A stretch of DNA of 64,000 nt, from NCBI RefSeq assembly GCF_023517795.1, contig NZ_CP082928.1, positions 868,001 through 932,000 on the forward strand, in the 5' to 3' direction. The notes under the pieces were generated by a model, which did no database searches, was not told the DNA's origin, and saw only the letters and a list, made by a program, of their open reading frames with translations. A program made the position numbers and the translations under genes. Positions 32,385-46,763 of the stretch are shown here, piece after piece. The DNA is from Pseudomonas fulva. GTDB taxonomy: Bacteria > Pseudomonadota > Gammaproteobacteria > Pseudomonadales > Pseudomonadaceae. Positions within the stretch are counted from its first letter, which is position 1. Every line of letters begins with the position of its first letter.

Positions 32385-34916
32385 ATGTTGCCGCGCGCTT
32401 TCCGCCCTCTCGCCACCCTGAGCCTGGCCGGCCTCGTCACCAGCATGGTCGCGCTGAGCGGTTGCCAATCCCTGCTCGACAGCCGTTACCGCAGCAGTGT
32501 GGCGCCGGATCAGGGCTCCTTTCGCGTGCAGGGCCTGGCGCAGACCGCTTCGGTGCGCCGCAACCCGCTCGGCATGCCGCTGATCGAGACTCACACCTTC
32601 CACGACGCCCTGTTCACCCTGGGCTACGTGCACGCCAGCGATCGCCTCAGCCAGATGGTCAGCCTGCGCCTGATGGCAGAAGGTCGCCTGGCGGAGATGG
32701 CCGGCCCCGGCGCGCTGGAAATGGACCGGTTCATGCGCGCGGTGAACCTCAAGAAGAGCGCCGAGGTGCTCTACAAGAATGCCTCGCCACGCATGAAGGC
32801 GTTCTTCGAGGTTTACGCCCGGGGCGTCAATGCCTACCTGTTCCGCTACCGCGACAAGCTGCCGATGGACCTGGCCGAGGCTGGCTATCGCCCGCCGTAC
32901 TGGAAGCCGGAAGACTCGGTGCTGGTGTTCTGCCTGCTCAACTTCGGCCTGTCGGTGAACCTGCAGGAAGAAATCGCCGCCCTGAGCCTGACCCAGAAGG
33001 TCGGCGCCGACAAACTCGCCTGGCTGCTGCCCACCTATCCGGACGAGCCGCTGCCGTTCGAGGAAGCCGACAAGCTCAAGGGCCTCGCCCTGGGCGGCAG
33101 CATCCCCGGCCTGCAGGCGGTGAAGAGCGCCGCAGCGCAGGTGTCCGAGCAGCACATGCTCGGCGTCGCCGCCTCGAACAACTGGGCCATCGGCCCGTCG
33201 CGCAGCCGCAGCGGCAAGAGCCTCTTGGCCAACGACATGCACCTGCCGATCGAGCTGCCCTCGGTGTGGAGCTTCGTGCAGATCCGTGCGCCGAAATTCC
33301 AGGCCTCCGGGGTCACGGTCGCGGGCATCCCCGCGGTGGTCGCCGGCTTCAACGGCAAGCTGGCCTGGGGCATGACCATGGTCATGGGCGACAACCAGGA
33401 CCTGTTCCTCGAGCAGGTCAAGCGCGAAGGCAATCGCCTGCTGTACCTCGCCGATGGCAAATGGCAGCCGGCCCTGCAGCGTCAGGAAACCTTCTTCGTC
33501 AAGGGCCAGAAACCGATCCGCGAAACGATCCACGAAACCCGCCACGGCCCGCTGCTCAACAGCGTGCTGGGCGAGCGCAAACATCCGCTGCAGCCGCTGC
33601 AATTGCAGAGCGGCTATGGCCTGGCGCTGAAGACTGCACAATTCGAGGAAGATGCCAGCCTCGACGCCTTCTTCGATCTGTCCCGCGCCCAGTCCGTGGA
33701 GCAGGCCTTCGAGGCGACCCGGGAAATCCGCGCCATGCCGCTGAACCTGGTGTTCGCCGATGCCGAGCATATCGGCTGGCAGGTCACCGGGCGCTTCCCC
33801 AACCGCCGCGAAGGCCAGGGCCTGGTGCCCTCCCCAGGCTGGGACAGCCGCTACGAGTGGGACGGCTTCGCCGACCCGATGCTCCACCCCTATGACCAGG
33901 ACCCGCAGCAGGGCTGGCTGGGCAGTGCCAACCAGCGCAGCGCACCGCGCGGCTACGGCATGCAGCTGTCCAACTCCTGGTATGGGCCGGAGCGCTACGA
34001 GCGCATCGCCCAGCTGGCTGGCAGCGGCCGCCACGACACGCAGAGCATGATCGCCATGCAGTACGACCAGACCTCGCCCTTCGTCGCCAAGCTGCAGGGC
34101 ATGCTCGAGGCGCAGAACATGGCCGAACCGCTGCGCCAGGCCATCGACCGCCTGCCCGAGCCGCAGCGCGGCAAGGCCCGCGAAGCCCTGAGCCGACTGA
34201 TGGCCTTCGACGGCAAGCTGTCGGCCAACTCGGCCGACGCCGCCGTGTATGGCGCTTTCCTGCAGCAGAGCGCGCGGGAGATCTTTCTCGACGAACTGGG
34301 CCCGGACACCTCGCCGGCCTGGCAGGCGCTGGTGAACACCGCCAACCTGTCCTACTCGGCACAAGCCGATCACCTGCTCGGCCGCGACGACAGCCCGTTC
34401 TGGGACGACGTGCGCACCACCCAGAAGGAAGACAAGCCGGCGATCCTGGCCCGTAGCCTGGCGGCCAGCATCGAGCTGCTCGAACAGCGCCTGGGCAATC
34501 AGCGCACGGCGTGGCAGTGGGGCAAGCTGCACACCTACGAGTGGCTGAGCGGCAGCACGCAGATGGCGCCGTACCTGGGTGCCGGCCAGCGCGCCAGCAT
34601 CGCCTCGCTCAAGGGCTACCTGGATCGCGGCCCCTACCCAGCCGGTGGCGACCATAGCACCCTGAACGTTTCGGCCTACAACTGGGGCCAGGATTTCGAC
34701 ACCTGGCTGATCCCGAGCATGCGCATGATCGTCGACTTCGGCCGCGAAGAACCGATGATCGGCCTCAACAGCTCCGGGCAGTCCGGCAACCCGGCCAGCC
34801 CCCATTATGCCGACGGCATCGACGCCTGGCGCCGCGCCCAGTACCTGAGCTTCCCGGTGCTGCAACAGAACCTGGAGAAGACCTACGGGCGCAAACGCCT
34901 GCTGCTGACGCCTTGA
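32385..34916 (+). CDS. quiP: Penicillin-amidase-family acylase (QuiP-like N-acyl-homoserine lactone acylase)
   Basis: 843 aa precursor of an Ntn hydrolase. The export signal has an LSGC sequence (Cys27), suggesting lipidation or cleavage just there. The propeptide/alpha-chain region contains [26 protein letters not shown]. The autocleavage site and beta-chain N-terminus is at [12 protein letters not shown], with Ser264 as nucleophile; [20 protein letters not shown] and the Asn/Arg catalytic neighbourhood follow. QuiP of P. aeruginosa hydrolyses the amide of long-chain acyl-homoserine lactones, removing quorum signals; the same gene neighbourhood supports orthology. CAGGAG precedes the ATG. 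Frames reading the other strand here are shadows. Confidence 0.9.
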
Positions 34917-34927
34917 CGCACAACAGC

Positions 34928-34942
34928 GGTGCGCAGCGCACC
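34928..34942. repeat. Short perfect inverted repeat upstream of the nas operon
   Basis: GGTGCGC-A-GCGCACC, two 7-bp arms, about 100-115 bp upstream of the predicted nas transcription start, which is the normal distance for a sigma-54 enhancer. The right arm with following bases (GCACCAA) resembles an NtrC half-site, but the palindrome as a whole is inverted relative to the NtrC consensus. It could instead be the tail of a quiP terminator without a T-run. Confidence 0.35.
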
Positions 34943-35016
34943 AATACCAGTCAGCAACCGCGCTGTCGTTAACGCAGCGCCTTACCCGGCGCCCGCTCCG
35001 GTGGGCTCCATCAAGT

Positions 35017-35032
35017 TGGCACAGTCCCTGCT
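35017..35032 (+). promoter_or_regulatory. Sigma-54 promoter of the nasCA-cobA operon
   Basis: TGGCACAGTCCCTGCT fits the RpoN consensus TGGCAC-R-N4-TTGCW at all but one position, with GG and GC at exact -24/-12 spacing. Transcription would start near 35043, giving a leader of about 134 nt before the nasC-like ATG. Confidence 0.88.
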
Positions 35033-35042
35033 GTTCACTTTC

Positions 35043-35136
35043 CAGACATAACGCGGGCCGGCAAACGGCACGCTCCCCGAATGATCGGGACCGGACAAAG
35101 GCGTCCTTGCACTGGCGGTGCAGGACGCTTTTTTTT
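35043..35136 (+). promoter_or_regulatory. Transcribed leader with hexaloop hairpin and attenuator (NasR target)
   Basis: Downstream of the predicted start come a GCCG/CGGC hairpin (35057-35069), then CCCG-AATGAT-CGGG (35076-35089) and an intrinsic terminator: GCGTCC..GGACGC and TGCAC..GTGCA stems (35101-35128), one bulged T, loop TGGCG, then eight T's (35129-35136). The hexaloop has A at position 1 and G at position 4, the rule for ANTAR-protein RNA targets as I know it. The terminator ends about 30 bp before the first gene's Shine-Dalgarno. NasR binding nitrate should allow read-through. Confidence 0.8.
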
Positions 35137-35176
35137 GGCCTCGCGGTCGCCTGGGTTGGCTCCATGGAGGTGAAGG

Positions 35177-36442
35177 ATGAAGCGATTGAAACTGGTGATG
35201 ATCGGCAACGGCATGGCCGGCGTGCGCACGCTCGAAGAGCTGCTGAAGATCGCTCCGGACCTTTACCACATCACCGTATTCGGCGCCGAGCCGCACCCCA
35301 ACTACAACCGCATCCTGCTCTCGCCGGTATTGGCCGGCGAGCAGACCTTCGATGACATCGTGCTCAACGACCTCGCCTGGTACGCCAGCCATGGCATCGA
35401 ACTGCGCCTGGGCCGCAAGGTAGTGGCGATCGATCGCATCCGCCGCCGGGTGATCGCCGATGACGGCAGCAGTGCCGACTATGACCGCCTGCTGATCGCC
35501 ACCGGCTCGCGGCCGTTCATGCTGCCGGTACCCGGCAACAGGCTGGACGGCGTGATCGGCTACCGCGACATCGCCGACACCCGCCTTATGCTCGACAGCG
35601 CCAACCGGCACCGCCGCGCCGTGGTCATCGGCGGTGGCCTGCTGGGCCTGGAAGCCGCCCACGGCCTCAAGCTGCGCGGCATGGACGTCAGCGTGGTGCA
35701 CAACGGCGCCACCCTGCTCGAGCGCCAACTCGACGAGCGTGCCGGGCGGCTGCTGCAGGCGGCCCTGGAGCGCCGCGGCCTGCACTTCGCCCTCGGCAAG
35801 CAGACCAGCGAACTGATCGGCAACGCCGCCGGCCGGGTCAGCGCGGTGCGTTTCAGCGATGGCGAGAGCCTGCCCGCCGATCTGGTGGTGATGGCCGCCG
35901 GCATCCGCCCCAATATCGAACTGGCCCAGGACGCCGGCCTGCCCTGCGCCCGCGGCATCCTGGTCGACGACACGCTGCAGAGCTTCGACCCGCGCGTGTA
36001 CGCGGTGGGCGAATGCGTCAGCCACCGCGGCGTCGCCTATGGCCTGGTGGCGCCGCTGTTCGAGCAGGCGCGGGTATGCGCCAGCCACCTGGCCATGCAG
36101 GGCTATCGCCGCTACCTCGGGTCGCTGACCTCGACCAAACTGAAAGTCACCGGCATCGAGCTGTTTTCCGCCGGTGATTTCGCAGGCCACCCCGGCACCC
36201 AGAGCATCACCCTGGACGACCCAACCACCGGCAGCTACCGCAAGCTGGTGCTCAAGAACGACGTGCTGGTCGGCGCCTGCCTGTACGGCGACACCGCTGA
36301 CAGCGCCTGGTACCTGCAGCTGATCCGCGAGGGCGGCAACCTGGCCGCGATCCGCGACCTGCTGATGTTCGGCGAAGCGGCCGTGGCCAGCCTGACACCG
36401 GCCGTGCCAGCCGAACCGCTGCTCCTGCAGGGGGCGGCCTGA
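35177..36442 (+). CDS. nasC: Assimilatory nitrate reductase electron-transfer subunit (FAD/NADH)
   Basis: 421 aa flavoprotein. Two Rossmann motifs: GNGMAGVRTLEELL (FAD) and VIGGGLLGLEAAHGLKLRG (NAD(P)H), plus YDRLLIATGS and VYAVGECVSHRG (second FAD motif). It matches the N-terminal half of NirB nitrite reductases but stops before any siroheme/4Fe-4S domain. It should therefore feed NADH electrons to the adjacent nitrate reductase, like Klebsiella NasC. The C-terminal part (TSTKLKVTGIELFSAGDF onward) is the typical NirB linker domain. A very strong GGAGG-TGAAGG precedes the ATG. The stop overlaps the next start (TGATG). Confidence 0.9.
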   Translation: MKRLKLVMIGNGMAGVRTLEELLKIAPDLYHITVFGAEPHPNYNRILLSPVLAGEQTFDDIVLNDLAWYASHGIELRLGRKVVAIDRIRRRVIADDGSSADYDRLLIATGSRPFMLPVPGNRLDGVIGYRDIADTRLMLDSANRHRRAVVIGGGLLGLEAAHGLKLRGMDVSVVHNGATLLERQLDERAGRLLQAALERRGLHFALGKQTSELIGNAAGRVSAVRFSDGESLPADLVVMAAGIRPNIELAQDAGLPCARGILVDDTLQSFDPRVYAVGECVSHRGVAYGLVAPLFEQARVCASHLAMQGYRRYLGSLTSTKLKVTGIELFSAGDFAGHPGTQSITLDDPTTGSYRKLVLKNDVLVGACLYGDTADSAWYLQLIREGGNLAAIRDLLMFGEAAVASLTPAVPAEPLLLQGAA

Positions 36443-39183
36443 TGAGCAGCCGCGCCAGGCAAACCACCGCCTCGACCTGCTGCTACTGCGGCGTCGGCTG
36501 CGGCGTGCTGATCGACCACGATGGCGAGCGCATCCTCGGCATCAGCGGCGATCCGGCGCACCCGGCCAATTTCGGCAAGCTGTGCAGCAAGGGCGCCTCG
36601 CTGCACCTGACCGGCGACCTCGCCGCCCGCGCGCTGTATCCCGAACTGCGCCTCGGCAAAGGGCTGGGCCGCACCCGCACCGATTGGGACAGCGCCCTGG
36701 ATCACGCCGCTGAGGTATTCGCCGAGACCATTCGCAAACACGGCCCGGACAGCGTGGCGTTCTATATCTCCGGGCAGCTGCTGACCGAGGATTACTACGC
36801 TTTCAACAAGCTGGCCCGTGCCCTGGTCGGCACCAACAATATCGACAGCAATTCACGCCTGTGCATGTCCTCGGCCGTGGTCGGCTACAAGCGCAGCCTG
36901 GGCGCCGACGCCCCGCCCTGCTCCTACGAGGACATCGAGCAGGCCGACACGTTGCTGATCATCGGCAGCAACATGGCCTACGCCCACCCGATCCTGTTTC
37001 GTCGCCTGGAAGCGGCCAAGGCTGGCAACCCGCAGATGAAGGTGATCGTCGTCGACCCACGGCGCACCGACACCTGCGAGCTGGCCGATCTGCACCTGGC
37101 CATCGCCCCTGGCAGCGACGTGGCGCTGCTGCACGGCGTGCTGCACCTGCTGCTGGAACAGGGGCGGATCGACCACGCCTTTATCGAAGCTCACACGGAA
37201 GGTTTCGACGCCCTGCCAAGCCTGGCTGCCGACTACACGCCGGCACGGGTTGCCGGGCTGTGCGCGATCAGCGAGGCGGATCTGCGCCGCTGCGCGGAGT
37301 GGATCGGCCGCTCGCCACGCTTTCTGTCGCTGTGGTGCATGGGCGTCAACCAGTCCACCGCCGGCACCGCCAAGAACGCCGCGATCATCAACCTGCACCT
37401 GGCCACCGGGCAGATCGGCCAGCCAGGCAGCGGGCCGTTTTCCCTTACCGGCCAGCCCAATGCCATGGGCGGCCGGGAAACCGGCAGCCTGTCCAACCTG
37501 CTGCCTGGCCACCGCGAAGTCGCCAACCCCGAACACCGCGCCGAAATCGCTGCTTACTGGGGCGTCGACAGGCTGCCGGAAACGCCAGGGCTCAGCGCCA
37601 TCGAGCTGTTCGAGGCCGTCGGCAGCGGCAGGATCAAGGCACTGTGGATCGCCTGCACCAACCCGGCCCAGTCGATGCCCGATCAGCAGCGAATTCATCA
37701 GGCCCTGCGCGACTGCCCGTTCGTGGTGGTGCAGGAAGCATTTTCCACCACCGAGACCTGCCGCTTCGCCGACCTGCTGCTGCCCGCTGCCAGCTGGGGC
37801 GAGAAGGAAGGCACGGTGACCAACTCCGAGCGCCGCGTCAGCCGGGTGCGCCGTGCGGTGCCGGCACCAGGCGAGGCGCGGGCGGACTGGTCGATCACCT
37901 GCGACTTCGCCCGCCGCCTGGAAGCCAGGCTGCCGGGCACGCCGGCCGGCCTTTTCGCCTTCAGCAACCCCGAGCAACTGTTCGAGGAATACAAGGTACT
38001 GACCCGTCGGCGTGACCTGGACCTGAGCGGGCTCGGCTACGGCCTGCTGGAAGCCCGTGGCCCCCAGCAGTGGCCATTTCCCGAAGGCGCAGAACGAGGT
38101 ACGCCGCGCCTCTACGGCGATGGCCAGTTTCCGAGCGTCAACGGTCGCGCACGCTTTATCGCCGAGGCCTATCAGTCACCCAAGGAGCAGCGCGACGAGC
38201 GCTATCCACTGACGCTGAACACCGGCCGCCTGCGTGATCAGTGGCACGGCATGAGCCGCACCGGCACCGCGGCGCGGCTGTTCGCCCATGTCGAGGAACC
38301 GCTGCTCGGCCTGCATCCCCAGGACCTGGCGCAGCGGCAGCTGGAGGACGGCAGGCTGGTCGAGGTGCGCAGCCGCCGCGGCGCGCTGGTGCTGCGTGTG
38401 CAGGCCGACGCCAGCCTGCAACCGGGCCAGGCGTTCCTGCCCATGCACTGGGGCGACCGCTTTCTCAAGGGTCTGGGCGTCAACGCCCTGACCTTACCGG
38501 CATTCGATCCGCTGTCGAAGCAGCCTGAGCTCAAGCACGCCGGCATCGAGGTGCAGGCCATCGACCTGCCCTGGACCTTCCAGGCGCTGGTCGAAGGCGA
38601 CGTGCAGCAGCGCCTGCAGGCCTTGCGCCCGCTGTGCGACGGCTTCGCCCATGCCAGCTTCGCCCTGGTCGGCCGTGAAACCTCGGCACTGGTGATGCGT
38701 GCCGCCCATCATCACGCCCCGGCTGCCGCCTTGCTCGACCAGCTGCACCAGCACCTGGGCCTGAACGATGGCCCGGTGATGCGCTACGACGACCCGCGCG
38801 ATGAACTGGGCTGCATGCCCATCCACAAACGCGTGCGTATCGAGGACAGCCGCCTGACCGGTTTTGCCCTGAGTGGCGAAAGCAGAGCACATAACTGGCT
38901 GCGTGAACTCTGGCAGAACCAGACCTCGCTGGACGACGACACCGGCCGCGCCCTGCGGCGTTGGCTTCTGGCCCCGCTGGAAACCCCGCCTGGGCGGACG
39001 ACGATACGTACTGGCAAAACCTTGTGCACCTGTATGAACGTCAGTGAAACCGCCGTGCGCGAGGGCATCGAACGCGGCTGTGACCTCGCCGCACTGAAAC
39101 GGAATCTCGGCTGCGGCACCGGGTGCGGCTCCTGCGTCCCGGAAATCAAGCGCCTGCTGGCGCTACAGACGATCGAAGCCTAG
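36442..39183 (+). CDS. nasA: Assimilatory nitrate reductase, catalytic molybdenum subunit
   Basis: 913 aa, cytoplasmic (no Tat signal). The N-terminal 4Fe-4S cysteines are CCYCGVGCGV...LCSKG. Mo-bis-MGD domains follow (NSRLCMSSAV; GSNMAYAHPILFRRLEAAK; GQPNAMGGRETGSLSNLLPGHR; NTGRLRDQWHGMSRTG). The C-terminus adds a BFD-like [2Fe-2S] domain (CTCMNVSETAVREGIERG and LGCGTGCGSCVPEIKRLL), as in Klebsiella NasA. It reduces nitrate to nitrite for nitrogen assimilation, with electrons from the preceding flavoprotein. The first gene of the cell's nitrite reductase is not here. Confidence 0.95.
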   Translation: MSSRARQTTASTCCYCGVGCGVLIDHDGERILGISGDPAHPANFGKLCSKGASLHLTGDLAARALYPELRLGKGLGRTRTDWDSALDHAAEVFAETIRKHGPDSVAFYISGQLLTEDYYAFNKLARALVGTNNIDSNSRLCMSSAVVGYKRSLGADAPPCSYEDIEQADTLLIIGSNMAYAHPILFRRLEAAKAGNPQMKVIVVDPRRTDTCELADLHLAIAPGSDVALLHGVLHLLLEQGRIDHAFIEAHTEGFDALPSLAADYTPARVAGLCAISEADLRRCAEWIGRSPRFLSLWCMGVNQSTAGTAKNAAIINLHLATGQIGQPGSGPFSLTGQPNAMGGRETGSLSNLLPGHREVANPEHRAEIAAYWGVDRLPETPGLSAIELFEAVGSGRIKALWIACTNPAQSMPDQQRIHQALRDCPFVVVQEAFSTTETCRFADLLLPAASWGEKEGTVTNSERRVSRVRRAVPAPGEARADWSITCDFARRLEARLPGTPAGLFAFSNPEQLFEEYKVLTRRRDLDLSGLGYGLLEARGPQQWPFPEGAERGTPRLYGDGQFPSVNGRARFIAEAYQSPKEQRDERYPLTLNTGRLRDQWHGMSRTGTAARLFAHVEEPLLGLHPQDLAQRQLEDGRLVEVRSRRGALVLRVQADASLQPGQAFLPMHWGDRFLKGLGVNALTLPAFDPLSKQPELKHAGIEVQAIDLPWTFQALVEGDVQQRLQALRPLCDGFAHASFALVGRETSALVMRAAHHHAPAAALLDQLHQHLGLNDGPVMRYDDPRDELGCMPIHKRVRIEDSRLTGFALSGESRAHNWLRELWQNQTSLDDDTGRALRRWLLAPLETPPGRTTIRTGKTLCTCMNVSETAVREGIERGCDLAALKRNLGCGTGCGSCVPEIKRLLALQTIEA

Positions 39184-39220
39184 CGAAGACTGGGTTGAAC
39201 CTAGACAGAGGAATCCCGTG

Positions 39221-39967
39221 ATGAACCCAAGCGTATGGCTGATCGGCGCCGGCCCCGGCGACCCGGAATTGCTCACTCTCAAGGCAGTGCGCGCCCTCGG
39301 CCTGGCCGACGTGGTGCTGATCGACGATCTGGTCAACCCCCAGGTGCTGGAGCACTGCCCCGGCGCCCGGGTGATTCGCGTCGGCAAGCGCGGCGGCTGT
39401 CGCTCCACGCCCCAGGCGTTCATCCACCGCCTGATGTTGCGCTACGCCCGCCAGGGCAAGGTGGTGGCGCGCCTCAAGGGCGGCGACCCGTGCATCTTCG
39501 GCCGTGGCGGCGAAGAAGCCGACTGGCTGGCGGGGCGCGGCGTGCGTTGCGAGATCGTCAACGGCATCACCGCCGGCCTGGCTGCAGCGACACGCTGCGG
39601 TATCTCCCTGACCCTGCGCGGCGTGGCGCGCGGGGTGACGCTGGTCACCGCGCACACCCAGGACGGCACCTCGCCGAACTGGCAGGCCCTGGCCCACGCC
39701 GGCACCACGCTGGTGGTGTACATGGGCATCGCCACCCTGGCCGACACCCGCCAGCATCTGCTGGACGCCGGCATGCCCGCCGACACCGCGGTGGCGATGA
39801 TCGAGAACGCCTCGCTGCCCGAGCAGCGTGAATGCCGCAGCACGTTGCAGGCGATGGCCGACGACGCCCAGGCCATTCAGTTGAAAAGCCCGGCCATCCT
39901 GGTGATCGGCGAGGTGGTTGGCGCCGCCATGCTGGCCGCCGAGCAATTGCACCTGCACAGCGCCTGA
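39221..39967 (+). CDS. cobA: Uroporphyrinogen-III C-methyltransferase (SUMT)
   Basis: 248 aa. SAM-dependent methylation at C2 and C7 to precorrin-2, the first committed step to siroheme (nitrite/sulfite reductase) and cobalamin. Motifs: VWLIGAGPGDPELLTLKAVRAL (GxGxGDxxLLT), VRLKGGDPCIFGRGGEEADWL and VTAHTQDG, all conserved. GTG at 39218 and ATG at 39221 are adjacent; ATG is preferred given the AGAGGA spacing. It is the third gene of the nas operon, 37 bp after nasA, which ties siroheme supply to nitrate use. Confidence 0.95.
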   Translation: MNPSVWLIGAGPGDPELLTLKAVRALGLADVVLIDDLVNPQVLEHCPGARVIRVGKRGGCRSTPQAFIHRLMLRYARQGKVVARLKGGDPCIFGRGGEEADWLAGRGVRCEIVNGITAGLAAATRCGISLTLRGVARGVTLVTAHTQDGTSPNWQALAHAGTTLVVYMGIATLADTRQHLLDAGMPADTAVAMIENASLPEQRECRSTLQAMADDAQAIQLKSPAILVIGEVVGAAMLAAEQLHLHSA

Positions 39968-40041
39968 AGCAGGTGGCCCAGCAGAACTGGACTGCTATTT
40001 GCACCGTTCTGGTTCAACACTGCGACCGACAAGACCCTGCC

Positions 40042-41349
40042 ATGCCCGATCACAAGATGCCCGCCACCCTGCGTTTCATGCTCGCCGCCCGCCGTTGCGA
40101 GCTGCAGGGCCTGGAAAGCCTGTCCGTCACCTGCGAGCTGGTTACCCGGATCAGCCAGCTGGTACACCAGCTGCAGAAGGAACGGGGCTACTCGAACGTC
40201 TATCTGGGCAACCAGACGGACCACTATCTGCACCAACTTGATGCCCACAGCGCAGACTGCGCCGTCGTAGAGCGCGAGGTGCATGGTTTTTTTCTGTCCA
40301 TGGACACCGCCCAGGCCAACGCCGCCGACCGGGCGCGCCTGTTCAACCGCATCGCCTACGTGCTGCATGGCTTCGACGAACTGCCTGGGCTGCGCCGGCG
40401 CATCCGTGAACGGCAATTGTCGCCACGCCAGGCGACCCAGGCCTTTACCCGCCTCATCGGCGGGCTTCTGGCGGTGGTCTTCGAAGCGGCCGATACCGCC
40501 GCCGACCCCGGCCTCACCCGGCTGCTGGTAGCGCTGTTCAACTTCATGCAGGGCAAGGAGCTCGCCGGCCAGGAACGTGCAGTCGGCGTGGAAGGTTTTT
40601 CCCGTGGGCACTTCGATGACGAACTGCAGGCCCGCCTGCTGCATCTGCAGGAAGGCCAGGAGCGCTGCTTCGACATCTTCGGCGAGTTCGCCGATGCCGA
40701 GGCCAGTGCCCTGTGGCAGGGTATTCTCGGCACCGACACCGTGGCCCAGGTGATCAGCCTGCGCGGGGTCGCCAGGCGCACCTCCGCCGCGGCCCAGGTG
40801 GACCCGGGCTTGTGCGAGCTATGGTTCGAGCTCAACACCAGGCGCATCGACGCCATGAAACAGGTGGAAAGCCACCTGACCCAGTGCCTGCTCGAACGCT
40901 GCCGGCGCAGCATCGCCGAAGCCCATGCCGACCTGGACAACCACCGCGCCCTGCTCGGCCGTGTGGCGCAGATGGATGCTGCCAGCGACCAGGCGCTGTT
41001 GTTCAGCGTGCACAGCAGCACCCTCGACACCCCACCCCAGGGTGCCGTGGGCAGCCACCTGGCCCGCTCGGTGCTGGATCTTCTCCACGAGCAGAACCAG
41101 CGCCTGCAAAAGGTCAGCGACGAACTGCAGGAAACCCGCGAAACCCTCAACGAGCGCAAGCTGATCGAGCGGGCCAAGAAGCTGCTGATGAACGACTACG
41201 GCCTGAGCGAAGAGGACGCCTACGCGCGTCTGCGCCAATCGGCCATGGAGCGCAGCATGCGCCTGGTCGACGTGGCCCAGAGCCTGCTCACCTTTGCCGC
41301 GCGCAAGGCGCAGCCAACTCCGCGAGGCGACAAGGGCAAGCGCGGCTGA
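40042..41349 (+). CDS. nasR: Nitrate-sensing antitermination regulator NasR (NIT-ANTAR)
   Basis: 435 aa. The N-terminal NIT domain covers roughly residues 25-300 and contains LVHQLQKERGYSNVYLG, with the Arg expected to help hold nitrate or nitrite. The C-terminal ANTAR RNA-binding domain is at about 365-425 (ERKLIERAKKLLMNDYGLSEEDAYARLRQSAMERSMRLVDVAQSLL), joined by a helical linker (LARSVLDLLHEQNQRLQKVSDELQETRETL). Klebsiella NasR binds nitrate and then the nasF leader RNA to prevent termination. Here it lies between two operons with matching leaders. It is 74 bp after cobA on the same strand, so it may be expressed both with the operon and on its own. Confidence 0.94.
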   Translation: MPDHKMPATLRFMLAARRCELQGLESLSVTCELVTRISQLVHQLQKERGYSNVYLGNQTDHYLHQLDAHSADCAVVEREVHGFFLSMDTAQANAADRARLFNRIAYVLHGFDELPGLRRRIRERQLSPRQATQAFTRLIGGLLAVVFEAADTAADPGLTRLLVALFNFMQGKELAGQERAVGVEGFSRGHFDDELQARLLHLQEGQERCFDIFGEFADAEASALWQGILGTDTVAQVISLRGVARRTSAAAQVDPGLCELWFELNTRRIDAMKQVESHLTQCLLERCRRSIAEAHADLDNHRALLGRVAQMDAASDQALLFSVHSSTLDTPPQGAVGSHLARSVLDLLHEQNQRLQKVSDELQETRETLNERKLIERAKKLLMNDYGLSEEDAYARLRQSAMERSMRLVDVAQSLLTFAARKAQPTPRGDKGKRG

Positions 41350-41446
41350 GCGAGCTGCGGCTCTATGACTGAGCGTCGCCTCCCCCCCCACCCCAAGAAT
41401 GCCATTCGCAATGGCTTAAACGTGGCGGGAGCGGCCGGTCGTTCCC

Positions 41447-41522
41447 GTAGGGTGGACAACGCTCTTTTTGTCCACCATTGCGATTGCAGAGCGGTGGATG
41501 GGTGAAGCGTCATCCACCCTAC
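41447..41522. repeat. Long intergenic palindromic repeat
   Basis: GTAGGGTGGA at 41447-41456 and TCCACCCTAC at 41513-41522 form a perfect 10-bp outer stem, with inner GTCCACC/GGTGGAT arms. The composition is that of an extragenic palindromic element in several pseudomonads (from memory). It sits in the nasR-nasF gap, next to a separate REP unit. Confidence 0.65.
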
Positions 41523-41534
41523 GCCTGATCCCTT

Positions 41535-41558
41535 GTGGGAGCGGGCCATGCCCGCGAA
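41535..41558. repeat. REP element
   Basis: GTGGGAGCGGGCCATGCCCG, then CGAA: a classic Pseudomonas REP with GCGGGC/GCCCGC stem, 13 bp from the larger palindrome. Confidence 0.85.
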
Positions 41559-41559
41559 A

Positions 41560-41850
41560 AATCACGGGTATCACCGCCCGTTCTCACGGATAGGGTAACG
41601 GCCGCTTTTGCCTTATTTCCCTAGATCCATCTGACTACCAGCGCCCATTCCCGAACCTCCATGCACCTGCGCCGCGCACCAAAGACGTATCGCGCCCCGC
41701 TGCTGTGCGATAGCGACGGTGGCCCGCGCACTGCGCGGATCGCCGTGACGTATCGAGCGCGGTCCGAAAAGCCTTCCCGCTCAACCAGTTAACGCCTCGA
41801 TAAGGGGGCTCCACCATCGACGGCCCCGCAGTCGAATCAGGCGCCGAAAT
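41560..41850. other. Non-coding upstream region of the nitrate transporter operon
   Basis: No gene seen. It probably holds activator sites for the sigma-54 promoter downstream. GCGCACCAA at 41674-41682 repeats the NtrC-half-site-like string found upstream of the nas promoter (34936-34944). I did not find a full NtrC palindrome. Confidence 0.4.
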
Positions 41851-41853
41851 GGC

Positions 41854-41869
41854 TGGCATGCAACCTGCT
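41854..41869 (+). promoter_or_regulatory. Sigma-54 promoter of the nitrate transporter operon
   Basis: TGGCATGCAACCTGCT fits TGGCAY-R-N4-TTGCW with the GG and GC at correct -24/-12 spacing; the single deviation (C for T before TGC) is the same as in the nas promoter at 35017. The start is predicted near 41880, giving a leader of about 122 nt. Confidence 0.87.
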
Positions 41870-41879
41870 ACGTCTCCTG

Positions 41880-41979
41880 GCAAGGAGGCAGGCCCTGCCC
41901 CTCCACAATCCGAACTCTGGACAACGGCGTCCACACTCGATGCAGCCCAGCGCTGCCTGAGCGTGACGCCGTTTTTTTT
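41880..41979 (+). promoter_or_regulatory. Transcribed leader with attenuator before nasF (NasR target)
   Basis: The 5' end of the predicted RNA folds as GGCAG-GCC-CTGCC with an outer GGA/TCC (41884-41904). A strong intrinsic terminator follows: CGGCGTC..GACGCCG, CACACTC..GAGCGTG (one mismatch) and GCAGC..GCTGC stems (41925-41971) and eight T's (41972-41979). It ends 22 bp before the ATG. Length and layout match the Klebsiella nasF leader (about 119 nt as I recall). A hexaloop with A1/G4 was not obvious here, unlike in the nas leader. Confidence 0.78.
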
Positions 41980-42001
41980 GCGTGCCTTTGGGGAGAACGA
42001 G

Positions 42002-43333
42002 ATGGACGACACGCCACGCGAACAGCAGAACGCCGAAGAAAGAACCGGCCTGCCACGCCGCACCTTCCTCAAGCAGTCCATGGGGCTGCTCGGCGGCGGT
42101 GCCTTGATGAGCCTGCTGCCGGCAGGTCTGAGCAGTGCGGTCTGGGCTGCCGGCACGGATGGCCTGGAAACCACCAAGGCCAAACTCGGCTTTATCGCCC
42201 TCACCGATGCTGCGCCACTGTTCGTCGCCGAAGAGCTGGGGTTGTTCGCCAAGCACGGCATGACCGGGGTGGAAGTGCTCAAGCAATCCTCCTGGGGCAC
42301 CACCCGCGACAACCTGGTGCTCGGCGCTGGCAGTGGCGGCATCGACGGTGCCCATATCCTCACGCCGATGCCCTACCTGATGGCCGCCGGCAAGATCACC
42401 ACCAACAACACGCCGCTGCCGATGGTCCTGCTGGCGCGCCTGAACCTCAACGGCCAGGGCATCTCCATCAGCAAGGAATACGCGGACCTCAAGCTCGGCA
42501 CCGACGCCAGCGCCTTCAAGCAGGCGGTCGCGACCAAGCAGGCCAAGGGCCAGAAGATCGCCGCGGCCATGACCTTCCCCGGCGGCACCCATGACCTGTG
42601 GCTGCGCTACTGGATGGCCGCCGGCGGCATCGAGCCCAACACGGATCTGCCGACGGTGGTCATCCCGCCGCCGCAGATGGTCGCCAACATGAAGGTCGGC
42701 AGCATGGATGCCTTCTGCGTCGGCGAGCCATGGAACGCCCAGCTGATCAACCAGGACATCGGCTACAGTGCGGTGACCACCGGCGAGCTGTGGGCCAACC
42801 ACCCGGAAAAGGCGCTGTCGCTGCGCGCCGACTACGTGAACGCCAACCCCAACGCGACCCGCGCCCTGCTCAAGGCGGTGATGGAAGCGCAGATGTTCTG
42901 CGAGGCCGCGGCGAACAAGGAAAAGGTCGCGGAGATCTGCGCCAAGCGCCGCTGGATCGGCGCCCCGGCCAAGGACCTGCTGGCGCGCCTGCAGGGCAAC
43001 ATCGACTACGGCAACGGCCGTGTGGTGGAAAACAGCCCGCACCTGATGCGCTTCTGGAGCGAGTTCGCCTCCTATCCGTTTCAGAGCCACGACCTGTGGT
43101 TCCTCACCGAAAACAAGCGCTGGGGCTACCTGCCCAAGGATTTCGACAGCCAGGCACTGATCGACCAGGTCAACCGCGAGGACATCTGGCGCCAGGCGGC
43201 GGCCGAACTCGGCGTGCCCGCCGAACAGATTCCCCAGGGTAAATCCCGCGGCGTCGAAACCTTTTTCGACGGCAAGACCTTCGACCCGCAAAACCCGCAA
43301 GCCTATCTCGATAGCCTGACTCTCAAGGTCTAA
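42002..43333 (+). CDS. nasF: Nitrate ABC transporter, substrate-binding protein
   Basis: 443 aa, NrtA/CmpA family, periplasmic. A Tat-type signal (RRTFLKQSMGLLGGGALMSLLPAGLSSAVWA, RRTFLK motif) suggests export in folded form. The mature part begins KLGFIALTDAAPLFVAEELGLFAKHGM, with TPMPYLMAAG, AMTFPGGTHDLWLRYWMAAGGI, VIPPPQMVANMKVGSMDAFCVGEPWNAQLI and LWANHPEKALS, all nitrate-binding-family hallmarks. The start at 42002 has GGGGAG upstream and follows the attenuator; the frame's upstream extension is leader sequence. Confidence 0.94.
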   Translation: MDDTPREQQNAEERTGLPRRTFLKQSMGLLGGGALMSLLPAGLSSAVWAAGTDGLETTKAKLGFIALTDAAPLFVAEELGLFAKHGMTGVEVLKQSSWGTTRDNLVLGAGSGGIDGAHILTPMPYLMAAGKITTNNTPLPMVLLARLNLNGQGISISKEYADLKLGTDASAFKQAVATKQAKGQKIAAAMTFPGGTHDLWLRYWMAAGGIEPNTDLPTVVIPPPQMVANMKVGSMDAFCVGEPWNAQLINQDIGYSAVTTGELWANHPEKALSLRADYVNANPNATRALLKAVMEAQMFCEAAANKEKVAEICAKRRWIGAPAKDLLARLQGNIDYGNGRVVENSPHLMRFWSEFASYPFQSHDLWFLTENKRWGYLPKDFDSQALIDQVNREDIWRQAAAELGVPAEQIPQGKSRGVETFFDGKTFDPQNPQAYLDSLTLKV

Positions 43334-43346
43334 CCGGAGAAACGCC

Positions 43347-44192
43347 ATGAATGCGCCCGTCAAATCGCTGGCCCTGCCGGCTGGCGTCATCGCCCCCAGC
43401 TGGCTGAAACGCCTGTCGACCACCCTGATGCAGTCGGTGCTGCCGCCGCTGGTGATCACCGCCGCGCTGATGCTCGTCTGGCAACTGCTGTGCAGCGGCG
43501 CCAATGCCGCGCTGCCGCCGCCCAGCCAGGTCATCGAGGACACCTGGGAACTGATCGTCAATCCGTTCTACGACAACGGCGGCACCGACGTCGGCATGGC
43601 CTGGCAGCTGCTCGCCAGCCTCGAGCGCGTGGCCTATGGCTATGCCCTGGCGGTGGTGGTCGGCGTCGCCCTCGGCGTGCTGGTCGGCCAGTCGACCTGG
43701 GCGATGCGCGGCCTCGACCCGCTGTTCCAGATCCTGCGTACCGTGCCGCCGCTGGCCTGGCTGCCGCTGTCGCTGGCCGGTTTCAAGGACAGCCACCCCT
43801 CGGCACTGTTCGTGATCTTCATCACCGCCATCTGGCCGATCATCATCAATACCTCGGTGGGCATCCGCAACATTCCCGAGGACTACCGCAACGTCGCCAA
43901 GGTGCTGCGCCTCAATGGCGTGGAATACTTCCAGAAGATCATGCTGCCGGCCGCCGCACCGTACATCTTCTCCGGGCTGCGTATCGGCGTGGGCCTGTCG
44001 TGGCTGGCGATCATCGCCGCCGAGATGCTGATCGGCGGCGTGGGCATCGGCTTCTTCATCTGGGATGCGTGGAACGCCTCGCGCATCAGCGACATCATTC
44101 TCGCCCTGATCTACGTCGGCGTGGTCGGCTTCGTGCTCGACCGTCTGGTGCTGTTCGTCGGCAATCGCATCACCCGCGGCACATCGGCCTGA
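43347..44192 (+). CDS. nasE: Nitrate ABC transporter, permease
   Basis: 281 aa, about six membrane helices, NrtB family. The EAA loop is recognisable in NVAKVLRLNGVEYFQKIMLPAAAPYIFSGLRIGVGLSWLAIIAAEML, and PLFQILRTVPPLAWLPLSLAGF is the usual SsuC/NrtB segment. Partner of the binding protein and ATPase on either side; GGAG precedes the ATG, 13 bp after nasF. Confidence 0.95.
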   Translation: MNAPVKSLALPAGVIAPSWLKRLSTTLMQSVLPPLVITAALMLVWQLLCSGANAALPPPSQVIEDTWELIVNPFYDNGGTDVGMAWQLLASLERVAYGYALAVVVGVALGVLVGQSTWAMRGLDPLFQILRTVPPLAWLPLSLAGFKDSHPSALFVIFITAIWPIIINTSVGIRNIPEDYRNVAKVLRLNGVEYFQKIMLPAAAPYIFSGLRIGVGLSWLAIIAAEMLIGGVGIGFFIWDAWNASRISDIILALIYVGVVGFVLDRLVLFVGNRITRGTSA

Positions 44193-44202
44193 GGAGACAG
44201 AC

Positions 44203-45048
44203 ATGAGCAAGCACTACCTGAGCATCGAGCATGTGGAAAAGTACTTCGAGCGTGACGGTGTCACGTCCCACGTCCTGAACCAGATCAACCTCAACGTCGA
44301 GCGCGGCGAGTACATCTCCATCATCGGCCATTCCGGCTGCGGCAAGTCGACGGTGCTCAACATCGTCGCCGGCCTCACCGACTCGACCAGCGGTGCGGTG
44401 ATTCTCGACGGACGCGAGGTACGTGGTCCCGGCCCGGATCGCAGCCTGGTGTTCCAGAACCACTCGCTGCTGCCCTGGCTGACCGTGCAGGAAAACGTCG
44501 CCCTGGCGGTGGACAAGGTATTCAAGCACAAGAAGAGCAAGGCCGAGCGCCGCGACTGGACGCTGCATCATCTGGAACTGGTAAGCATGGGCCACGCCCT
44601 GCACAAGCGCCCCAACGAGATTTCCGGCGGCATGAAGCAGCGCGTCGGCATCGCCCGCGCCCTGGCGATGGAACCCAAGGTGCTGCTGCTCGACGAGCCG
44701 TTCGGCGCACTCGATGCCCTGACCCGCGCCCACCTGCAGGATGAGGTCATGCGCATCCAGAGCGAGCTGCACAACACGGTGATGATGATCACCCACGATG
44801 TCGACGAAGCCGTATTGCTCTCCGACCGCATCGTGATGATGACCAACGGCCCATCGGCGACCATCGGCGAGATCCTCAGCATCGACCTGCCGCGCCCGCG
44901 CGACCGCATCGCCCTGGCGGACGATCCGCGCTACAACGCCTATCGCCACGCGGTGCTGAGCTTCCTGCATGAAAAACAGCGCAAGGTCGAGCCCCTGCAA
45001 CGACGTAGCACCAGTGCGCCTGCCGACCAGCAGCGCGCCCGGGCGTAG
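44203..45048 (+). CDS. nasD: Nitrate ABC transporter, ATP-binding protein
   Basis: 281 aa. Walker A GHSGCGKST, Q-loop VFQNHSLLPWLTV, signature ISGGMKQRVGIARALAM, Walker B VLLLDEPFGALDA and H-loop ITHDVDEAV. It is the NrtD/CmpD type, with a single ATPase domain and no fused binding domain. It powers nitrate import with the two preceding gene products. It ends 9 bp before a convergent small gene, with no terminator in between. Confidence 0.95.
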   Translation: MSKHYLSIEHVEKYFERDGVTSHVLNQINLNVERGEYISIIGHSGCGKSTVLNIVAGLTDSTSGAVILDGREVRGPGPDRSLVFQNHSLLPWLTVQENVALAVDKVFKHKKSKAERRDWTLHHLELVSMGHALHKRPNEISGGMKQRVGIARALAMEPKVLLLDEPFGALDALTRAHLQDEVMRIQSELHNTVMMITHDVDEAVLLSDRIVMMTNGPSATIGEILSIDLPRPRDRIALADDPRYNAYRHAVLSFLHEKQRKVEPLQRRSTSAPADQQRARA

Positions 45049-46133: not shown

Positions 46134-46459
46134 GGCGGGGCCGTCCTGAAGGTCTGTGCGGTGAAAAGTGCAGGCATCTTACCGGGCTGCAAGGCTGGGT
46201 TCAAAGCCTCTCGACAGGCCGCAGCGAGGCGCCCGCGCAGGCGCCGATGCAAGTAAATCGCAGAAAGACTGACAGACCATTCGCACTTCGCGAAAAAAGC
46301 GGGTATGGTGATCCCACTGTGCTGCATGTGTCACCGCGAATCGCTACATGATGCCTAGATTTCGATCCAAACATCGTCCGACTCCTAGTACTCGTTGCAC
46401 TCAGTCCCGGCCTGGTTCTATCCAGGGCTGTTAATTATTTAGTTCTTAGGAGACATCAC
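46134..46459 (+). promoter_or_regulatory. Upstream region and 5' leader of the cold-shock gene
   Basis: No gene. A hairpin CCTGG-TTCTAT-CCAGG lies at 46411-46426, followed by the A/T-rich TTAATTATTTAG and the Shine-Dalgarno AGGAGA at 46448-46453. A long structured leader is typical of cspA-type genes and mediates temperature-dependent translation. I did not find a confident promoter; the dcd promoter is also in this gap. Confidence 0.5.
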
Positions 46460-46669
46460 ATGTCCAATCGTCAGACTGGCACCGTTAAGTGGTTCAACGA
46501 TGAAAAAGGCTACGGCTTCATCACCCCGCAATCCGGTGACGACCTGTTCGTACACTTCAAAGCTATCCAGAGCGATGGCTTCAAGAGCCTGAAAGAAGGC
46601 CAGCAGGTTTCCTTCGTGGCCACCCGTGGTCAGAAAGGCATGCAAGCTGAGGAAGTTCAGGTTATCTAA
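46460..46669 (+). CDS. Cold-shock domain protein (CspA family)
   Basis: 69 aa single OB-fold domain. RNP1 KGYGFITP and RNP2 DLFVHF are intact in [32 protein letters not shown]. Binds single-stranded RNA or DNA as an RNA chaperone. The C-terminus ([16 protein letters not shown]) fits the Pseudomonas CspA/CapB group. A strong Shine-Dalgarno is present. Its terminator follows 21 bp after the stop. Confidence 0.96.
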
Positions 46670-46690
46670 CCTGCTCCTTCCGCAAAAGAA

Positions 46691-46713
46691 CCCCGCCTAG
46701 GCGGGGTTTTTTT
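46691..46713 (+). terminator. Intrinsic terminator of the cold-shock gene
   Basis: CCCCGCCTAGGCGGGG, a perfect 16-base palindrome, followed by seven T's. Confidence 0.9.
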
Positions 46714-46763
46714 ATATCTGCGCTTCGTGCAGCAGGCACGCCGTGGCGCACCCGCGCTGGCGA

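Follow-up and report, generated by a model that had tools for sequence, protein, structure and literature searches.

Gene organization and regulatory features of the locus

The window analysed here is a stretch of 64,000 nucleotides (nt) from Pseudomonas fulva (NCBI RefSeq assembly GCF_023517795.1, contig NZ_CP082928.1, positions 868,001 to 932,000 of the forward strand), whose genome is a single contig of 5.44 Mb. Genes for nitrate assimilation lie in it in the order redA (35177), nasA (36442), cobA (39218), nasR (40042), an intergenic region of about 650 nt, and nrtA-nrtB-nrtC (42002 on). The reductase genes and the importer genes are each preceded by a leader, and nasR encodes a nitrate sensor with NIT and ANTAR domains. 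It is quite probable that these two leaders and a third one before nirBD, outside the window, are targets of a NasR antitermination regulon that is transcribed from sigma-54 promoters, most likely under NtrC. The features on which this proposal rests are as follows.

35017..35136, plus strand: leader 1, the reductase operon leader before redA, from the sigma-54 box to the end of a run of eight T's (T8)
35005..35129, plus strand: match of leader 1 to Rfam RF00625 (P11), 81.5 bits, gathering cut-off 70, E 8e-16
35017..35031, plus strand: sigma-54 box of leader 1, TGGCACAGTCCCTGC, of the form GG-N10-GC
35076..35089, plus strand: P1 hexaloop hairpin of leader 1, CCCG[AATGAT]CGGG, closing pair G:C; loop with A at position 1 and G at position 4 (A1/G4) in 11 of 12 clade leaders
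35093..35106, plus strand: P2 hexaloop hairpin of leader 1, GGAC[AAAGGC]GTCC, overlapping the 5' arm of the terminator (scan, folding)
35101..35136, plus strand: intrinsic terminator of leader 1 with T8 (terminator scan, folding)
40042..41349, plus strand: nasR, encoding the NIT-ANTAR nitrate sensor, likely an antiterminator that binds RNA; the fourth gene behind leader 1 (Pfam, PDB)
41854..41979, plus strand: leader 2, the importer leader before nrtA, from the sigma-54 box to the end of T8
41854..41868, plus strand: sigma-54 box of leader 2, TGGCATGCAACCTGC, of the form GG-N10-GC, identical in all 11 fetched clade loci
41884..41904, plus strand: H1 hairpin of leader 2 (folding), without an ANTAR-type loop; by eye, common to importer leaders
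41904..41908, plus strand: CACAA element, located between H1 and P2 and left without pairing partners in the predicted folds; conserved in importer leaders
41918..41933, plus strand: P2 hexaloop hairpin of leader 2, TGGAC[AACGGC]GTCCA (scan, folding)
41924..41979, plus strand: intrinsic terminator of leader 2 with T8, 13 pairs, sharing loop positions 2-6 and the 3' arm of P2

A first-pass annotation of the window had described two operons with sigma-54 promoters and attenuators flanking the nitrate sensor gene. This observation is right and the mechanism behind it is likely. A sigma-54 box and a terminator ending in T8 (at 35136 and 41979) do precede the start codons at 35177 and 42002, the NIT-ANTAR gene does lie between the leaders of the two operons, and the lengths given for the leaders, about 134 nt for leader 1 and about 122 nt for leader 2, follow from the boxes, the start sites being predicted.

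Hexaloop hairpins and terminators of the two leaders

Hairpins bound by ANTAR proteins have A1, G4 and a C:G closing pair, according to PMC3369931 and PMC7496416. The P2 hairpins of leaders 1 and 2 have all three features and overlap the terminator. A scan of the window for C[ANNGNN]G hairpins of at least 4 base pairs (bp) that overlap a terminator of at least 7 bp followed by five T's gave exactly two sites on the plus strand and none on the minus strand, while 20 simulated order-1 Markov strands gave 1 match in total. Both sites are present in all 11 fetched clade loci (L117-L126 and L129), which have the order redA, nasA, nasR, nrtA, with cobA found in 9 of the 11. The P2 pattern GGACAANGNNGTCC occurs 3 times in 5.4 Mb, two of these in the leaders, against 27 occurrences of a reversed control pattern. 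The third match (G000:C1:4010741) was rejected; it lies inside reading frames and has no run of five T's within 150 nt downstream. A general terminator scan of 34900-42100 was not above chance (5 found, 4.4 expected) and picked up leader 1 while missing leader 2, in which the loop on the stem is longer. The case is therefore carried by the hexaloop overlap and by conservation.

The predicted folds are mutually exclusive, as the 5' arm of the terminator in both leaders takes part of the P2 loop and the P2 3' arm. The full leader RNAs fold into the terminator (z -4.4 for leader 1 and -3.9 for leader 2), and RNAs cut before the 3' arm of the terminator have P2 as their minimum-energy fold, together with P1 in leader 1.

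Conservation was followed in a set of 41 importer leaders, the window included, on which the P1, P2 and CACAA counts below are based. Six near-identical Stutzerimonas importer leaders (L143, L145, L150, L151, L154, L181) were left out of this set, and five importer leaders of the P. oryzihabitans group that were missed by the P2 scan also stand outside it. An alignment of 28 of the 41 was used for covariation, and in it 86.5% of the terminator cells are paired. The covariation score of the terminator is 0.188, compared with a shuffled mean of 0.128, and is reached by none of 500 shuffles; changes on both sides are seen in 5 pairs (3.4 in shuffles, a value of 5 in 21 of 500), and pair types are no more numerous than in the shuffles (260 of 500). 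Slid versions of the pairing score lower, with the caveat that kinship alone can beat such shuffles without any structure.

The sequence GG[AG]C[AACGNN]GTCC is present in all 41 importer leaders, and among 80 NasR-linked loci 51 have nrtA, 46 of them with a P2-terminator leader directly upstream. Several points weigh against a NasR-responsive P2. Its stem is nearly invariant and pairing is not proved by covariation. In the five P. oryzihabitans-group loci the importer P2 was missed by the scan, and the two of these leaders that were inspected have the same layout with the loop GAAGGT, in which A1 is lost. With leader 2 also lacking a canonical P1, the terminator before nrtA could be a plain attenuator, or a terminator for transcripts from nasR, that does not respond to NasR. 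The terminator stem includes loop positions 2-6 and the 3' arm of P2, so that some of the conservation could be due to the terminator. However, the 5' arm GG[AG]C and loop A1, which lie outside the terminator stem, are present in all 41 leaders, and loop positions 5 and 6 vary in step with the 3' arm of the terminator. This terminator also has a conserved sigma-54 box of its own upstream and is found before nrtA in those 46 of 51 loci. A plain terminator is thus improbable. The P2 stem is supported by its invariance, its position, and the constant 5' arm and A1 outside the terminator stem.

Two further arrangements were seen in other loci. In L172, L174 and L175 of the P. oryzihabitans group, near 12600-12900, a C[AACGGC]G hairpin is followed by a P2 of the form GGAC[AAAGGC]GTCC, a terminator and a reading frame; the frame is cobA in L174 and L175, and the importer leader loop of both is GAAGGT without A1. 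In four Achromobacter loci (L182, L184, L190, L195) a CAGGGC[AATGGC]GCCCTG hexaloop on the minus strand near 12550 overlaps a terminator upstream of a nasA relative (44%).

Leader 1 and the P11 family

Leader 1 is the only P11 match over the cut-off in the genome. Of the 396 genomes of the genus that were searched, 262 have a P11 match at E 0.001 or better, in 235 of them over the cut-off. P11 lies before nirB, nasA and cobA in 5 of 6 fetched stretches; in the sixth (L228) neither the P2 of P11 nor the queried genes were found. In a 2026 review (PMC12830290) NalA is described as the leader of the nirBD operon, where NasT antiterminates and NtrC with sigma-54 starts transcription. From the position before nirB-nasA-cobA and this description P11 is probably NalA. 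No explicit statement of this was found in the literature searched, and a search by the names P11 and NalA gave unrelated papers among the matches listed. Because its P11 relatives stand before nirB-nasA-cobA and NalA is described in this way, the reductase leader is most likely a member of a family whose antitermination in Pseudomonas has been described before, and Klebsiella nasF, the one precedent named by the first-pass annotation, does not stand alone.

The number of hexaloops varies within P11. At least three A1/G4 hexaloops are found in 29 of 30 P11 leaders, the 30 loci being the best-scoring of the 262 genomes and not a random draw. The clade of the window has two, P1 and P2, and the loop of the first hairpin now has five bases in the window. 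A 2-nt indel affects the P1 loop region within the clade, and both versions have an A1/G4 hexaloop. The C:G closing pair preferred in SELEX (systematic evolution of ligands by exponential enrichment) is absent from P1 of leader 1, and P1 in the clade is closed by G:C or A:U, which is a point against control by NasR.

Rfam lists this family as "Pseudomonas sRNA P11", of type Gene, and termination would leave a short RNA of about 90 nt, so a mainly trans-acting small RNA has to be considered. In the 30 loci read, though, a redA or nirB homologue lies within 1.5 kb of P11, the P11 RNA carries ANTAR hexaloops that overlap the terminator, and NalA is described as a NasT-antiterminated leader (PMC12830290). 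It is highly unlikely that leader 1 is mainly a small RNA of this kind.

A third leader before nirBD

The nirB gene of the genome lies on the minus strand at G000:C1:1614122-1616503 with nirD directly after it, and has a leader of its own.

G000:C1:1616613-1616744, minus strand: nirBD leader, outside the window and 0.7 Mb away; it carries a sigma-54 box, P2 and a T8 terminator

Its box is TGGCATGCAACCTGC, as in leader 2, and its P2, AGGC[AAAGAC]GCCT, has the ANTAR features, with a degenerate P1. The model R1, built from the 28 aligned importer leaders with that of the window among them, finds leader 2 and the nirB leader in the genome (E 1.3e-6); the next match has E 0.04. All 18 NasR genomes that have a nirB match at E 1e-200 (21 searched) also have a P2-terminator leader before nirB.

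P1 in the importer and nirB leaders

Leader 2 has no canonical P1. Under a strict definition, an A1/G4 hexaloop on a stem of at least 4 bp, P1 is found in 11 of 12 leader-1 relatives, 1 of 41 importer leaders and 7 of 18 nirB leaders, with a random expectation of 0.025-0.057 per leader. At 3 bp the counts are 12 of 12, 1 of 41 and 9 of 18 (1.3, 3.2 and 2.3 expected in all). Leader 2 is also a poor match to P11 (16.8 bits, E 0.51, cut-off 70), although it is the second best in the genome. The 40 of 41 importer leaders without a canonical P1 and the low P11 score are points against NasR control of the importer genes. The two attenuators both have a P2 over the terminator, but they are not equivalent.

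Could another element of the importer and nirBD leaders serve as the second docking site? A bulged hairpin, for instance CCTGAC[AAGGAG]GCAGG, or the CACAA element might act as P1, in which case there would be no true single-hexaloop leader. When a bulge or mismatch was allowed and a C:G closing pair demanded, this loose rule found a P1 in 12 of 18 nirB leaders (about 1.6 expected) and an unrelated hairpin in just 1 of 12 leader-1 relatives. In importer leaders it found 6 of 41, about 2 being expected; five of these are in the clade of the window (the window, L117, L119, L121 and L129), and one compensatory change is seen in L117. The form in the window is a bulged CCTGGC[AAGGAG]GCAGG, which competes with H1. 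CACAA is kept in 28 of 41 importer leaders compared with 3.1 expected, and ACA[AT] in 38 of 41 (11.1 expected), but CACAA is not enriched in the nirB leaders (4 of 18, 3.4 expected). A non-textbook second site is on balance somewhat unlikely. The best reading of the sequences is that the importer leader is a conserved single-hexaloop terminator leader, and this is the new part. The sequence GAAT follows CACAA in 19 of 41 importer leaders and occurs correspondingly in 13 of 18 nirB leaders (3.2 and 2.4 expected).

NasR

The NasR protein has matches to Pfam NIT (187.6 bits) and ANTAR (64.9 bits) and to PDB 4akk (E 1e-53). It is the only ANTAR match in the source genome when 70 of 70 candidates are scored; no ANTAR protein of the NasT type was found among them. 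Seven other genomes of this gene order (G382, G358, G147, G001, G164, G356, G397; cobA not found in G356) have one ANTAR match each, with 16 candidates scored per genome. ANTAR proteins are found in 365 of 398 genomes of the genus, and a NasR relative at E 1e-20 in 19 of 396. In a comparison of NasR for which 80 of 420 relatives were kept, the named species nearest to the window are P. argentinensis, P. straminea and P. punonensis (92-93%), followed by P. daroniae, P. seleniipraecipitans, P. flavescens and P. dryadis (78-85%). The earlier proposal of one regulator for two attenuators is supported in that NasR is the sole ANTAR protein found and both leaders have a P2; the number of leaders in the genome is three.

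Residues of K. oxytoca NasR with roles in RNA contact have been described (PMC7496416). R340, K341, K347 and R366 are kept here and K345 is replaced by R. Two other positions weigh against the proposed RNA binding. N373, whose alanine mutant in K. oxytoca NasR does not bind RNA, is S here, and is G or S in the 17 of 19 aligned rows that have a letter at this position. W362 is Y. Because of K345R, W362Y and N373S, RNA recognition by this NasR may differ from that of the Klebsiella protein.

Promoters and NtrC

The sigma-54 consensus is TGGCACG-N4-TTGC. Both boxes had been reported to share CTGC for TTGC as their single deviation; CTGC is found in both, but each has two deviations, the second being A for G at position 7 in leader 1 and T for C at position 6 in leader 2. 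The TGGCAC...CTGC box precedes leader 1 in all 11 fetched clade loci. The sequence TGGCAYNNNNNCTGC has 4 exact matches in 64 kb (1.2 expected), two of which are these boxes. Conserved elements were found upstream of both promoters.

34917..34943, plus strand: NtrC-like island (GCAC, then CGCACC) upstream of the reductase promoter, recurring in 11 of 12 clade members, L126 being the exception
41662..41709, plus strand: pair of NtrC-like sites, TGCACCTGCGCCGCGCA and CGCCCCGCTGCTGTGCG, upstream of the importer promoter, conserved in the clade
41781..41791, plus strand: integration host factor (IHF)-like core, TCAACCAGTTA, between the NtrC-like sites and the importer box; TCAA-N4-TTR in 7 of 12 clade members

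The first NtrC-like site of the importer promoter, with 2 mismatches, lies at -190 to -192 of the box in 12 of 12 clade members, and the core of the second (G[CT]TGTGCG) about 31 bases further on, again in 12 of 12. The IHF-like core was called against the IHF consensus. A scan of the window with the NtrC consensus gave 61 matches against 64 expected, which is chance level and tells against NtrC control, and sites called by consensus alone were rejected. An ntrC gene is present in the genome (796.6 bits, cut-off 558.6). On the basis of this gene and the conserved islands NtrC control of both promoters is likely; the earlier claim of such control is plausible. A sigma-70 promoter for nasR was not found in 34900-42100, which says little with 0.6 expected by chance.

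Genes of the two operons

The genes downstream of the two leaders are listed below.

35177..36442, plus strand: redA, NADH/FAD subunit (Pfam Pyr_redox_2), corresponding to the N-terminal part of the NirB of relatives' P11 operons
36442..39183, plus strand: nasA, molybdopterin oxidoreductase of the assimilatory nitrate reductase type with a BFD-like domain, below NCBIfam cut-offs
39218..39967, plus strand: cobA, uroporphyrinogen-III C-methyltransferase (domain and family matches)
42002..43333, plus strand: nrtA, binding protein of the nitrate ATP-binding cassette (ABC) importer (Pfam NMT1_2)
43347..44192, plus strand: nrtB, nitrate ABC importer permease (TIGR01183, over cut-off)
44203..45048, plus strand: nrtC, nitrate ABC importer ATPase (TIGR01184, over cut-off)

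RedA is 71-74% identical to residues 1-406 of NirB in five fetched P11 operons. The NirB encoded elsewhere in the genome shares only about 36% identity with this P11-operon NirB. Neither nirD nor the remainder of nirB is part of the redA operon, and the sole nirD match of the genome is beside the distant nirB. The nasR gene starts 74 bases after cobA. The simplest reading of these sequences starts from a P11-nirBD-nasA-cobA operon under NasT control, from which NasST, nirD and the remainder of nirB disappeared and to whose end nasR was added. The P11 leader would have been taken from NasT to NasR in an apparent regulator swap with feedback.

Three side observations concern the neighbourhood of these genes. 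The P11 operon of L225 has, judged by eye, a Rieske-like frame between nirB and nasA. An inverted-repeat stretch at 41440-41530, with GTAGGGTGGA and its complement, lies between nasR and the importer promoter and by eye resembles an interspersed repeat. At 46383-46714 on the plus strand there is an Rfam match to the cspA thermoregulator of 62.4 bits, under the cut-off of 78.

Proposed mechanism

Under nitrogen limitation NtrC would start transcription at the sigma-54 promoters. In the absence of nitrate, transcription would end at the leader terminators. Nitrate or nitrite would free the NIT-autoinhibited ANTAR domain of NasR, and the freed NasR would hold the P2 hexaloop hairpin closed. The terminator could then not form, because the terminator 5' arm includes the 3' arm and part of the loop of P2, and the polymerase would read on. 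The targets would be redA-nasA-cobA-nasR (P1 and P2), nrtABC (P2 only) and nirBD (P2 and a degenerate P1), and the best reading of the leaders gives a regulon of one dual-hexaloop leader and one, perhaps two, single-hexaloop leaders. Since nasR lies within the leader-1 operon, read-through at leader 1 should raise NasR, a positive feedback if the four genes form one operon. Leader 1, with its full site, might respond first and feed back on NasR, and P2-only leaders would need more active NasR.

K. oxytoca NasR requires nitrate or nitrite for binding, which takes place at about 1 uM for P1P2 and, about 12-fold more weakly, at about 12 uM for P2 alone (PMC7496416). In the EutV model P1 is a recruitment hairpin that is needed in vivo, and a 20-nt extension of the linker abolishes antitermination (PMC8934654). 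On that model leader 2 should respond poorly, which is a point against its control by NasR. Either a single hexaloop suffices when NasR is abundant through the feedback, or another element replaces P1.

A broader reading joins these points, and it is put forward tentatively, as a possibility that falls short of even odds. ANTAR antitermination on a moving polymerase would work with a single hexaloop, and the importer leader of NasR-bearing Pseudomonas would be a conserved, natural P2-only leader sharing its protein with a dual-hexaloop leader of the same genome. Because the two leaders differ in affinity and nasR is in the high-affinity operon, the response would be ordered or bistable, the reductase and the sensor coming first and the importer later. 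P11, which elsewhere works with NasT, would in this clade have been taken over by the one-component NasR.

Comparison with known systems

In K. oxytoca nasR is next to the importer gene nasF. The K. oxytoca NasR/nasF system is like the present one in its NIT-ANTAR protein, its leader terminator and an overlapping P2 hexaloop. Here, by contrast, separate leaders precede the reductase and the nitrite reductase genes, and nasR belongs to the leader-1 operon. Both P1 and P2 are described for the K. oxytoca nasF leader (PMC7496416), whereas the importer leader of the window has no canonical P1.

NalA/NasT of P. aeruginosa and P. putida resembles leader 1 in that a P11 member with a sigma-54 box, hexaloops and a terminator lies before nasA-cobA. 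The differences are that the regulator here is NasR and not NasT, there are two hexaloops and not three, NirB is cut to its FAD part, and nirD is not in the operon. In E. faecalis one ANTAR protein, EutV, serves several terminator leaders with four eut sites; these are dual hexaloops with a limited linker (PMC7496416, PMC8934654), whereas at least one leader here has a single hexaloop. Bradyrhizobium NasT is also one ANTAR protein acting on several nitrogen-gene leaders, but it belongs to a two-component NasS-NasT system that has denitrification genes among its targets, and most targets of the system have no NasT-interaction hairpin (PMC6759348). In predicted ANTAR regulons there are matches upstream of genes for nitrate and nitrite transporters and for nitrite reductase (PMC3369931, section 10). 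Multi-leader ANTAR regulons are thus already known or predicted. A three-leader NasR regulon with P11 and a conserved P2-only terminator leader were not found in the literature searched, most subscription papers being beyond reach, and the argument for novelty from this silence is weak.

Implications

In the EutV structure paper the binding site was reduced to one hexaloop with P1 still required for recruitment, and how far a single hexaloop functions is left open (PMC8934654). With a leader that across Pseudomonas has kept P2 and the terminator but no canonical P1, next to a dual-hexaloop leader for the same protein, a single organism is enough for a direct test of this question. Such leaders may be missed by searches in which two hairpins are required, as in PMC3369931, and NasR and NasT regulons may be under-counted. 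The pairing of P11 with NasR suggests how a leader can outlive a change of regulator. If the mechanism holds, nitrate reductase, the importer and nitrite reductase would be switched by one nitrate sensor that cancels early stop signals.

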